Assembly: GCA_024409055.1 (NCBI GenBank)
Contig: JAKSUL010000007.1
Location: forward strand, 1 to 55,209
DNA length: 55,209 nt
DNA from: Bacilli bacterium
GTDB taxonomy: Bacteria > Bacillota_I > Bacilli_A > RFN20 > CAG-826
Direction of reading: 5' to 3'
A program made the position numbers and the translations under genes. This document shows, in pieces, positions 4,466 through 55,209 of the stretch (its first letter is position 1; every line of letters begins with the position of its first letter). The notes below the pieces were generated by a model that was not told where the DNA came from, did no database searches, and was given only the letters and a program-made list of their open reading frames with translations.

Positions 4466-4576
4466 ATATAAAGCTATCGTGTTTTGTGCTGTTGACTAAT
4501 ATTGTAATTGCTGGGTAAATGAGAATAAAGTAATTATTAAACTAAGTTGAAAAAAGTTGTATACTATCGTCGGAAA

Positions 4577-22668: not shown

Positions 22669-22690
22669 ATCAATGACTATTATATAGAGT

Positions 22691-30657: not shown

Positions 30658-30884
30658 TTTTGAAACTATTGGCTTCAGTTGATGCCCGCCGATATTAACG
30701 ACACGTACGACAAAAAAATAAGGCCATTTTAAGGCATTTTTGACACTTTGATTAGGAAAGTCACGAGCGTGATTTTTGCGTCCCTAAAAAAACTACTAAT
30801 TTACTCTGTGCTTATCGATGAGCAAAAACTACTAATTTTCAATTCTTTATATTTATATAAGGATTAAAGGTTTATTCTATTTGC
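30658..30884. other. Intergenic region with direct repeats and AT-rich promoter for yggS
   Basis: No gene is seen. The stretch holds a TCAC-GAGC-GTGA hairpin followed by TTTTT (about 30762-30778) and two direct copies of ACTACTAATTT (30792-30802 and 30828-30838), 36 bases apart and each preceded by a run of A. A related element, with GCGTC before AAAAACTACTAA, recurs near 55016-55032. TATTCT (30873-30878) ends six bases before the next ATG. Confidence 0.55.
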
Positions 30885-31573: not shown

Positions 31574-31579
31574 TATAAT
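31574..31579 (+). promoter_or_regulatory. -10 box of the GT2 gene, leaderless-type
   Basis: A perfect TATAAT ends nine bases before the ATG at 31589, and no Shine-Dalgarno sequence lies between. Transcription would begin within a few bases of the start codon. No good -35 is visible. Confidence 0.6.
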
Positions 31580-33636: not shown

Positions 33637-33642
33637 TATAAT
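33637..33642 (+). promoter_or_regulatory. -10 box before the 32-residue peptide and ruvAB, leaderless-type
   Basis: A perfect TATAAT ends six bases before the ATG at 33649. No ribosome site is present. The -35 region is poor. This promoter would drive the small gene and the following ruvA-ruvB. Confidence 0.6.
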
Positions 33643-39813: not shown

Positions 39814-39850
39814 GCCTCTTCTAACAAAGAAGAGGCTTTTGTCTTATAAT
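39814..39850 (+). terminator. recJ terminator overlapping the rel promoter
   Basis: GCCTCTTC and GAAGAGGC form a perfect 8-bp stem (39814-39836) followed by TTTTGTCTT. The T tract runs into TATAAT (39845-39850), the -10 box of the next gene, whose -35 region would fall in the hairpin loop (CTAACA, 39821-39826). Confidence 0.85.
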
Positions 39851-51556: not shown

Positions 51557-51563
51557 TATTTAG

Positions 51564-51592
51564 TTAACATAATTTGAAGCGTCCAGTAAAAT
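51564..51592 (+). promoter_or_regulatory. Promoter of dinB-xerD, leaderless type
   Basis: TTAACA (51564-51569) and TAAAAT (51587-51592) are exactly 17 bases apart, and the -10 box ends six bases before the dinB ATG at 51599. Transcription should start at or next to the start codon. No ribosome site is present. Confidence 0.75.
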
Positions 51593-51598
51593 GTAGGC

Positions 51599-52789
51599 AT
51601 GAGTAAAATCATCGCTCACATCGACTTGGACGCTTTTTTCGCGACTTGCGAAGAAATACGCGACCCCAGTTTAATCGGAAAACCGGTTCTTATCGGCCAT
51701 ACCGGCAGAAGCGGGATTGTTTCAACGTGTTCTTATGCCGCTAGGAAATATGGCTGCCATTCTGGCCAGCCGATGTTCCAGGCTTTGCAAAAATGCCCTC
51801 AGGCAATCGTGATCCGCGGCGATCGCGACTATTACTCGATGATGAGCCACAGCTTCTTCGGCTTTATCCACGGATACTCGAAGTATGTTGAAGGCGCATC
51901 TATAGATGAGTGCTACGTCGATATGACGGACGCCCTCAGGAACGTCGATGATCCGGAAGCTTATTTCAGGACGATGCAGAAAGCTTTGCTTGAAAGCACC
52001 GGCTTAAAGATGTCTATCGGAGTTGCGCCGACTCGTTTCTTGGCTAAGATGGCTAGCGACATGCAAAAGCCTTTAGGCTTAACGATCTTAAGGAAGAAAG
52101 ACATCTCCACGATGCTTTATCCTCTTCCGATCGAAAAGTTCTGGGGAATAGGCAAAAAGACTTCTCCTAAACTCAGGAAGATGGGGATTGAGACAATAGG
52201 AGATTTGGCCAAGAGACTAAACGAAGACGATCCAATCCTTAAGGATTCGCTTGGAAAATTCTACGAAACGATAAAAGAATGGGTCAACGGCGGTGGTAGC
52301 GATGAGATCGATTTATCCACCTGGGATCCCAAAAGCGTGTCTCGCGGAGAAACGTTCTCGCATGACGCGGACTTGGAATCGGAAGTGGCTCCTTATATAA
52401 GGAAGCTAGCGAAAGAAGTCAGCGACGCTTTGAAACAAGATAAGAAAGTAGGCAACACAATTACTTTACAAGTAAAAGATACTAATTTCCGACTATATTC
52501 CAAGTCGGTAACAATTAAAGATTCGACAGATGATTCCGATGTGATCGCCTCTAGATGCATCGATTTATACCGTGAGAATTACATTGGAAAGATGCTTCGT
52601 TTTGTTTCGGTTGGAATCTCGAAATTAACAAACCCGGTCAGGCAAAACGTGCAGATGACTTTCTGGAATTATCAGGATTTCGAGGAAAAAGACCAAACGA
52701 AGCTCCTTATCGAAGAACTGAATAGAAAAGCCGATAAGCCTCTCTTTAAGAGAGGGTCTCAGGCCGAAAGCGGGAGGAAGAAGAAATGA
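51599..52789 (+). CDS. dinB: DNA polymerase IV (Y family)
   Basis: The 396-residue protein has the Y-family catalytic motifs HIDLDAFFATCEE (about 7-19), SIDECYVDMT (about 102) and SIGVAPTRFLAKMASDMQKPLG (about 141-162), a helix-hairpin-helix GIGKKTSPKLRKMGI, and the little-finger domain. A C-terminal KPLFKRG might be a weak sliding-clamp site. It bypasses DNA lesions. No ribosome site precedes it. It overlaps the recombinase gene by ATGA. No SOS (LexA) box of the Bacillus type is evident in the promoter. Confidence 0.96.
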   Translation: MSKIIAHIDLDAFFATCEEIRDPSLIGKPVLIGHTGRSGIVSTCSYAARKYGCHSGQPMFQALQKCPQAIVIRGDRDYYSMMSHSFFGFIHGYSKYVEGASIDECYVDMTDALRNVDDPEAYFRTMQKALLESTGLKMSIGVAPTRFLAKMASDMQKPLGLTILRKKDISTMLYPLPIEKFWGIGKKTSPKLRKMGIETIGDLAKRLNEDDPILKDSLGKFYETIKEWVNGGGSDEIDLSTWDPKSVSRGETFSHDADLESEVAPYIRKLAKEVSDALKQDKKVGNTITLQVKDTNFRLYSKSVTIKDSTDDSDVIASRCIDLYRENYIGKMLRFVSVGISKLTNPVRQNVQMTFWNYQDFEEKDQTKLLIEELNRKADKPLFKRGSQAESGRKKK

Positions 52790-53670
52790 ACTTAGACGAA
52801 GCCATGAACTTATATTTTCAATTCCTTCTCGTCGAAAGAGGTGTTTCTGGCAAAACGATAGAGGCCTATAAAGAAGATCTGACCATCTTTTTCGACCGCT
52901 TTCCGGAAAAATTCACGACAGATGACCTTTATCCAAGCGATTTGAATGATTTCATGATGGTAGAAGGCGAAAGAGGCCGCGCTTCATCTACGATCGCTAG
53001 AAGAATCAGCTCCTTGTCCGGTTTTTATACCTTTTTGGAGACAGAGGGGATTTTAAAAGAAAGTCCGCTTAAGGTCGAAAGGCCCAAGCAGGAAAAAAGA
53101 ATACCGATCGTCATTTCGACCGAGCAAATCGAAGATTTGTTGGACGCCCCAAAGATCAACAAGGAATCGGGAGCAAGGGACAAAGCGATGTTAGAGACGA
53201 TGTATGCCTCGGGTTTGCGCGTCAGCGAGCTTTGTGGCCTAAAACTGACCAGCATCAACGTAAGAAACGGCATTTTGACCGTCGATAAAGGAAAAGGGGC
53301 AAAACAAAGAAGCGTCCCAATCGGCGATTTCGCTTTGAAATACTTGACCGATTACATAAATCGTTGGAGAAGCAAGAATCCAGGCTCGAAGGCTCCTTAT
53401 GTTTTCCTTAATAAGGAAGGAAAGCCGATTTCTCGTATCTATTTCTTTAAACAAGTTAAGAAATACGCGCTTGAAGTCGGAATAACGGAGTCCATTTCCC
53501 CGCATACTTTAAGGCATTGCTTCGCCACACATCTTCTGAATAACGGAGCTGAGCTTAGGATGGTTCAAGAAATGCTCGGGCATGCGCATTTATCGACGAC
53601 CCAGATATACACGCACATAAACGAAGACCGCATCATGAGCGCATATCGTTTGGTCTCGGACCGTAAATAA
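52786..53670 (+). CDS. xerD: Site-specific tyrosine recombinase XerD
   Basis: The 294-residue protein has the N-terminal SAM-like core-binding domain and the catalytic set R in YASGLRVSELCGL (about 146), K in GKGAKQRSVPIG, H-x-x-R in SPHTLRHCFATHLLNNG (about 242-245), H in LGHAHLSTT and the nucleophile Tyr in TTQIYTHI (about 277). Xer recombinases resolve chromosome dimers at dif. Being next to deoB, as in Bacillus, supports xerD rather than xerC or a phage integrase. Confidence 0.93.
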   Translation: MNLDEAMNLYFQFLLVERGVSGKTIEAYKEDLTIFFDRFPEKFTTDDLYPSDLNDFMMVEGERGRASSTIARRISSLSGFYTFLETEGILKESPLKVERPKQEKRIPIVISTEQIEDLLDAPKINKESGARDKAMLETMYASGLRVSELCGLKLTSINVRNGILTVDKGKGAKQRSVPIGDFALKYLTDYINRWRSKNPGSKAPYVFLNKEGKPISRIYFFKQVKKYALEVGITESISPHTLRHCFATHLLNNGAELRMVQEMLGHAHLSTTQIYTHINEDRIMSAYRLVSDRK

Positions 53671-53713: not shown

Positions 53714-54916
53714 ATGTCGAAGAAATTCAAAAGAATATTCCTAATCGTCGCTGACTCGGCCGGAGTCGGCGAAGAACCTGACGCCGATAAGTTCGGAGAT
53801 GTCGGCTCTAACACATGGGCCCATACGGCTGAAGCCGTTGGAGGTCTTAATGTCCCCAACATGGAGGCAATGGGAATCGGAGAGCTTGATGATATCAAAG
53901 GCGTAAAGCCGGTCCATAATCATCCGCATGCTTTTAGCATGAGGTGCCGCGAAGCCTCCAATGGCAAAGATACGATGACCGGTCACTGGGAAATGATGGG
54001 CATCAAAACCAGCAAGCCTTTCCAAACCTTCACCGATACCGGATTCCCTGATTCTTTAATCAAGGAACTAGAGAAAAGAACCGGACGAAAGGTCATCGGA
54101 AATTGCTCAGCTTCTGGAACCGAGATCTTAAAAAGGCTCGGAGAAGACGAGATTAAGAACGGACATCTTATCGTATACACCTCCAGCGACTCCGTATTGC
54201 AGATCTGCGGCCACGAACCGACCATGGGCCTAGAGAATCTCTATAGATACTGCGAAATCGCCAGAGAGCTTTGTATGAAGCCCGAATGGTTTGTGGGAAG
54301 AATTATCGCCCGTCCTTACGTCGGAACGTGCGCAGAAGACTTCAAAAGAGTCGTAGGGCACAGAAGAGACTATACCGTTTCCCCAAGTGGCGTCACCGCG
54401 ATGGATATCCTAAAGGATAACGGCGTTATGGTGAGCGCGGTCGGAAAAATCAGTGACATCTTTAATGATGTAGGCATTGTCAAAACCGTTCATACGGTTT
54501 CGAACGAAGATGGCATGGATAAAACCATAGATCAGCTTAAAAACGAGGATTGGGAAGGCTTATGCTTCGTAAACCTCGTTGAATTCGACAGCGAATACGG
54601 ACATAGAAGGAATCCGGAAGGATACGCCAAATGTTTGGAGGCGTTCGACAAAAGAGTAGGGGAATTCATCGCAAACATGCGTGAAGACGACCTCTTGATG
54701 ATTACGGCCGATCACGGAAATGACCCAACTTTCCACGGAACAGATCATACAAGGGAAAAAGTCCCGCTCTTAATTTATTCACCTTCCATCAAAAACGGCC
54801 GCTATTTAGAAGAAAGAGAATGCTTCGCAGACATGGGCGACACCATCTTGACCAACTTTGGCCTAAAGAAGGATCCGAGCATGATCGGAAAGACCATCAC
54901 GGAATTATTCGAATAA
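53714..54916 (+). CDS. deoB: Phosphopentomutase
   Basis: The 400-residue enzyme of the alkaline phosphatase-like superfamily has the metal ligand motif IVADSAGVGEEPDA (about 10-23), the phospho-acceptor Thr in GKDTMTGHWE (about 85-94) and the late metal motif ITADHGNDPTFHGTDHTREK (about 332-351). It interconverts ribose-1- and ribose-5-phosphate (and the deoxy forms) and links nucleoside salvage to the pentose phosphate pathway. A terminator follows. Confidence 0.97.
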   Translation: MSKKFKRIFLIVADSAGVGEEPDADKFGDVGSNTWAHTAEAVGGLNVPNMEAMGIGELDDIKGVKPVHNHPHAFSMRCREASNGKDTMTGHWEMMGIKTSKPFQTFTDTGFPDSLIKELEKRTGRKVIGNCSASGTEILKRLGEDEIKNGHLIVYTSSDSVLQICGHEPTMGLENLYRYCEIARELCMKPEWFVGRIIARPYVGTCAEDFKRVVGHRRDYTVSPSGVTAMDILKDNGVMVSAVGKISDIFNDVGIVKTVHTVSNEDGMDKTIDQLKNEDWEGLCFVNLVEFDSEYGHRRNPEGYAKCLEAFDKRVGEFIANMREDDLLMITADHGNDPTFHGTDHTREKVPLLIYSPSIKNGRYLEERECFADMGDTILTNFGLKKDPSMIGKTITELFE

Positions 54917-54955: not shown

Positions 54956-55209
54956 TTTGGAAAAATAAGAAAAAACCAAGAACGTAAAAGGCTGAATTCG
55001 CGTCGAAAAAGCGAAGCGTCAAAAACTACTAAAAATAAATGAGCAAATATTATTTTTTGATGTCTAAAGTGCATATTCTCAAAGAAAACAGCATATTGAA
55101 TGCCCTCAATTTACGACCATACAAGCGTTGCTGCAGTAGAATTCTATTAGTAGATTTCTAGTTGTGTGCAAAAGTGGATAACTCAAATAAGCAAATAAAG
55201 CATATATTT
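54956..55209. other. Terminal intergenic stretch with recurrent CTACTAA element
   Basis: No convincing gene is present. The stretch contains GCGTC followed by AAAAACTACTAA (about 55016-55032), similar to 30777-30838; a minus-strand CTACTAAT at 55146-55153; a TAGAATTCTA palindrome at about 55138-55147; two copies of GCATATT near 55071 and 55091; and GTGGATAAC (about 55180), an 8-of-9 match to a DnaA box. A 33-codon frame (55060-55161) is possible but weak. Confidence 0.4.

Follow-up and report, generated by a model that had tools for sequence, protein, structure and literature searches.

The dinB–xerD promoter in the DNA analysed here (a window of 55,209 nucleotides from a Bacilli bacterium of an uncultured lineage from gut or rumen) contains a lone copy of the XerD arm of the lineage's dif site, and the −10 hexamer of this promoter ends 6 nt before a dinB start codon that lacks a Shine–Dalgarno (SD) sequence. 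Our explanation as a whole, which we regard as probable, is that the dinB–xerD operon is expressed in a leaderless mode that is used throughout the lineage and that XerD represses the operon from this half-site. On the sequence evidence the leaderless pattern is real and lineage-wide, and it adds one more case to a known kind of expression; less expected is the presence of a XerD half-site in the promoter, and a literature search of partial coverage turned up no description of a xerD promoter containing a dif half-arm.

Organization of the dinB–xerD region

The features of the promoter and of the genes that follow it are listed below.

51563-51573, + strand: XerD half-site GTTAACATAAT, the proposed operator, identical to the XerD arm in the lineage's dif
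51564-51569, + strand: −35 hexamer TTAACA, with a 17-nt spacer to the −10 hexamer; overlaps the XerD half-site
51587-51592, + strand: −10 hexamer TAAAAT, 6 nt 5' of the dinB ATG
51599-51601, + strand: dinB start codon ATG, the predicted transcription start from the geometry and the lack of an SD
51599-52789, + strand: dinB, DNA polymerase IV (NCBIfam PRK01810, 324 bits, under the curated cut-off of 399)
52786-53670, + strand: xerD, tyrosine recombinase (TIGR02225 XerD, 314.8 bits against 279 for the XerC model; cut-off 329.6)
53714-54916, + strand: deoB, phosphopentomutase (PRK05362, 533 bits), between xerD and dif
55155-55209, no strand: 55-bp exact overlap with the reverse complement of contig C48, by sequence identity

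The xerD start overlaps the dinB stop by 4 bp, and one sigma-A-type promoter would drive both genes. The XerD score is slightly under the equivalog cut-off (314.8 versus 329.6), and a separate XerC gene on contig C20 (320 bits), which matches its own model best, is slightly under the cut-off of that model; both XerC and XerD are present in this genome (G000). A putative dif, TTAACATAATGGACATTATGCGAAGT, consists of two inverted arms flanking a 6-bp centre and was found through one copy of TTAACATAAY near dinB that continued into a longer site. We take it to resemble the dif sites of Escherichia coli and Bacillus subtilis. Of the 31 genus genomes, 27 have exactly one copy each, and the reversed control gave no match. 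In G000 the end of contig C48 carries the site (G000:C48:10443-10468) and, because the 55-bp overlap is exact, this contig and the window (contig C67) adjoin, placing dif at about 55274-55299. This predicted position is approximately 65 bp past the window end and 2.5 kb after dinB; across the lineage dif lies about 2.5–7 kb downstream.

A predicted leaderless start at dinB

The original prediction had described the dinB promoter as TTAACA-17-TAAAAT with 6 nt to the ATG and no SD, and its coordinates were exact. Because the −10 hexamer ends 6 nt before the ATG, transcription would start at the A of the AUG, giving a predicted mRNA 5' end at the start codon, and translation of DinB would take place on a leaderless mRNA. 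Of 31 non-redundant clade orthologues, 26 keep the −10 at exactly 6 nt, some of them with GTG starts, and a strict −10 box at this distance was present in 25 of 32 orthologues against 1.4 expected. The sequence between the −10 and the start varies among these orthologues, with the 6-nt spacing kept. The SD is absent at dinB and its clade orthologues; several outgroup orthologues (L017, L149, L150 and L151) carry SD sequences. From these comparisons dinB is the strongest single candidate for leaderless expression.

Leaderless geometry across the genome

Six further sites had been proposed to share the dinB geometry, and all are present in the window at the predicted distances.

4560-4565, + strand: TATACT, 11 nt before ATG 4577 of a GH37 trehalase gene
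22679-22684, − strand: TATAAT, 10 nt before ATG 22668 of a ROK gene
30873-30878, + strand: TATTCT, 6 nt before ATG 30885 of yggS; only 4/6 to consensus
31574-31579, + strand: TATAAT, 9 nt before ATG 31589 of GT2
33637-33642, + strand: TATAAT, 6 nt before ATG 33649 of a putative 32-residue frame
39845-39850, + strand: TATAAT, 9 nt before ATG 39860 of rel

Raw pattern counts in the window did not exceed chance for TATAAT-N6-ATG (1 found, 0.40 expected) or for TAWNNT-N6-ATG (14 found, 14.1 expected), so that a leaderless claim required a larger sample. The window is a contig of a 1.78-Mb genome (97% complete, 87 contigs) that orthologue searches group with 'Bacilli' MAGs, many of rumen or gut origin. 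Stretches of this genome totalling 837 kb and including the window were sampled (769 kb unmasked). Gene calling followed simple rules and used no trained gene finder: genes were non-overlapping ORFs of at least 80 amino acids with the first ATG as start; a strict −10 box was a 5/6 match to TATAAT with A2 and T6, and expected counts came from local shuffles.

Comparison of true starts with background, as the original prediction had suggested, gave a strong excess at 6–11 nt in these approximately 770 kb. Among 158 SD-less first-in-unit genes in the 769 kb, 45 strict boxes were observed at 6–11 nt against 11.0 expected, and 7 against 10.7 at 0–5 nt; the edge at 6 nt was sharp (13 boxes versus 1.8 expected) and counts stayed high through 11 nt. 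The 152 first genes bearing an SD showed no excess at 6–11 nt (4 strict boxes, 4.9 expected) and had theirs at 18–41 nt (77 versus 40.7). Two initiation modes do therefore coexist, as had been predicted, one with an SD and a −10 at 18–41 nt and one that is SD-less with a −10 at 6–11 nt. For the boxes at 6–11 nt, the −35 spacing shows an independent peak at 16–17 (12 of 47), as in leadered promoters, and so these boxes look like real promoters. The leaderless or near-leaderless share, estimated as a ratio of excesses, was 47% (bootstrap 34–60%) of detectable promoters, which is not a share of genes. Boxes 8–11 nt away would imply leaders of approximately 2–5 nt rather than zero. Fractions from an EM fit that left the SD and −10 motifs free were discarded, because its −10 motif moved to a nonspecific TCTATT.

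One explanation would make the enrichment an artefact, caused by AT richness of the upstream DNA or by wrongly called starts, the real leaders being longer. Such an artefact would fit the raw window counts, and the start calls were indeed made without a trained gene finder. However, the excess holds over the local-shuffle control with boxes depleted at 0–5 nt, the −35 spacing peaks where it does in leadered promoters, the SD-bearing genes show the opposite pattern and the exact 6-nt spacing is conserved at dinB; we consider an artefact very unlikely and the leaderless geometry, as read from these patterns, well supported.

Leaderless geometry in orthologues and relatives

The TATAAT 9 nt before the rel ATG is present as originally described, but the geometry is not conserved: some rel orthologues (L288-L317) have TATAAT 7–10 nt from the start and others have an SD instead. 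With such a mixture rel was rejected as a conserved leaderless gene; close relatives apparently use one mode or the other, near-leaderless or SD, for this gene. A conserved leaderless yggS was likewise rejected, with matches in 5 of 30 other genus genomes searched; yggS relatives have apparent stops at or beyond the C-terminal end of the protein and none inside.

Relatives were sampled at approximately 100 kb each, with small outgroup samples. By the same test the leaderless share was 49% (35–65%) in four other genus genomes and 58% (36–88%) in two sister genera. In the small samples from elsewhere, the share was about zero in two other family members, the remaining families of the order gave 10 boxes versus 5.8 expected and Erysipelotrichales-type loci gave 8 versus 3.6, the interval including zero in both of the latter cases. 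Bacillaceae and Paenibacillus gave 4 versus 2.6 expected, a sample too weak for an estimate. We propose a lineage-wide mode, spanning the genus and two sister genera, in which about half of detectable promoters lie 6–11 nt before an SD-less ATG, with the normal SD mode running beside it.

A XerD half-site in the dinB promoter

The XerD arm in the lineage's dif, TTAACATAAT, opens with TTAACA, the dinB −35, and the 10-mer in the dinB promoter is identical to this arm; the genome of 1.78 Mb has a single copy of the extended form GTTAACATAAT. The original prediction was right in naming TTAACA as a −35 hexamer with 17-nt spacing but overlooked this longer XerD/dif half-site. TTAACATAAY is common to most orthologue dinB promoters, at varying distances from the −10. 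The half-site is found in 25 of 31, in a single orientation, and its start slides from −16 to −47 relative to the dinB start, with the spacing from −10 to ATG fixed. It is missing from the other 6 of the 31, in genomes that retain dinB–xerD, and is therefore not essential. A genus-wide pattern search found the motif at background outside the dif/dinB region. The identity, conservation and synteny of the half-site were established by comparing sequences, and support for its presence is strong.

One possibility is that TTAACA is an ordinary −35 and nothing else, the longer TTAACATAAY being incidental or slowly diverging promoter sequence. About half of the orthologues with the half-site do have it in the −35 position, at a distance of 16–18 nt to the −10, and G008 keeps TTAACA as its −35 with the rest of the half-site lost. 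However, this would not explain why several orthologues carry the 9-mer elsewhere, either at −46/−47, where it abuts a separate TTGnnn −35 from just upstream, or, in the remaining orthologues, within the spacer or −10, nor why the motif equals a dif arm and, in the clade genomes sampled, is absent from other promoters. We regard a simple −35 as an unlikely explanation.

Another possibility is that the half-site serves XerD in unloading SMC near dif, the location within the dinB promoter being secondary. In B. subtilis XerD unloads SMC at the terminus (Karaboja 2021, as cited in PMC8242196 and PMC13220808), the site is near dif, and extra half-sites surround dif in some genomes. Against this, no SMC exceeded the family cut-off in 31 genus genomes (weak partial matches only, with 14 of 14 controls positive), in most genomes the dif and dinB sites are the only nearby copies, and the dinB copy stays within the promoter. 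Some of the genomes searched for SMC and LexA are incomplete, and SMC candidates were not all scored in every genome, although all were in G000. The SMC-unloading site was rejected, and we consider it improbable.

dinB is often an SOS gene and the motif is an imperfect palindrome, GTTA-ACA-TAAC, as might be expected if it were an SOS operator making dinB damage-inducible under a LexA-type repressor. Yet LexA was over the family cut-off in none of the 31 genus genomes (one fragment reached E=3e-4), and the motif is essentially specific to dinB and dif and matches the dif arm. The SOS operator is largely refuted and is, of the explanations raised here, the least likely. The lack of LexA and SMC matches over the cut-offs weakens both of these alternatives.

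We note that G009, G010, G014, G015 and G028 (loci L243, L244, L245 and L247) have additional XerD half-sites grouped around dif; at L243-L245 there are 5 exact half-sites in 16 kb against 0 in the reversed control. Several of those near dif have no close gene start, and not every site is therefore promoter-linked. A further TTAACATAAT in G000 (L254, G000:C39:6413-6422) lies approximately 70 bp upstream of a gene with a TetR-like N-terminus.

XerD as a proposed regulator of its own operon

A rigid leaderless start and a mobile, promoter-confined element act as two separate constraints, and together they are best fitted by an operator. We propose that XerD would bind the half-site TTAACATAAY in the dinB–xerD promoter, which in the window doubles as the −35, and that binding would repress its own operon. 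We infer repression, and with it autoregulation, because the half-site always overlaps or abuts the core promoter, and support for a regulatory role is moderate. In the −46/−47 group the half-site is upstream of the −35, repression may be less obvious there and activation is possible. The specific claim that a lone dif half-arm in a leaderless promoter lets XerD regulate transcription of the dinB–xerD operon, to which its gene belongs, in a lineage with LexA and SMC undetected and about half of its promoters leaderless, has in our estimation an even chance of being correct. If it is, the recombinase would also be an autoregulator, tying the levels of XerD and polymerase IV to the DNA-binding site of XerD near dif.

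Leaderless expression is apparently a main mode in one branch of the Bacilli, and in related families no significant signal was seen; close relatives differ, as with the change of mode at rel between species, and the mode switch is thus open to comparison. Gene-start annotation of these gut genomes is affected.

Comparison with known systems

Leaderless transcription has been predicted in 21.6% of bacterial species (PMC9581028), and bacterial leaderless genes are found mostly in Actinobacteria and Deinococcus-Thermus (PMC3160421). The original description of leaderless mRNA as uncommon in classical Bacilli was fair but not absolute, as 56 of 209 Firmicutes genomes have leaderless genes, at a mean of 4.2% of genes (range 2.4–16.6%; PMC3160421). 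The approximately 47% found here refers to detectable promoters and is not directly comparable with these shares of genes (mean 4.2%, maximum 16.6%). The arrangement resembles that of TA-led genes (PMC3160421), of GeneMarkS-2 leaderless genomes (as described in PMC9581028) and of the Deinococcus −10 motif (PMC12340547) in having a −10 approximately 6–11 nt before an SD-less start, beside SD genes; those systems are chiefly from Actinobacteria and Deinococcus-Thermus, whereas the present case is a Bacilli lineage. The leaderless mRNAs of Enterococcus are of the same class, but account for <1% of mRNAs by direct mapping (PMC7724050), against about half of detectable promoters inferred here.

As in the unloading of SMC in B. 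subtilis (Karaboja 2021, via PMC8242196), XerD would have a role beyond recombination near dif, although no SMC was detected in the present genus. The single dif with two arms and a 6-bp centre, and the separate XerC and XerD genes, are those of chromosome dimer resolution by XerCD/dif (PMC3025954; PMC5357621). However, xerC and not xerD is usually the gene near dif (PMC3025954), whereas here it is xerD that adjoins dif, and, in further contrast to those systems (PMC3025954; PMC5357621), an isolated XerD arm lies in the promoter of the xerD operon. XerS/difSL and XerH/difH (PMC2731167; PMC3325230) share the linkage of a recombinase gene to dif, as described for XerS (PMC2731167), but are single-recombinase systems, whereas the present lineage has both XerC and XerD.
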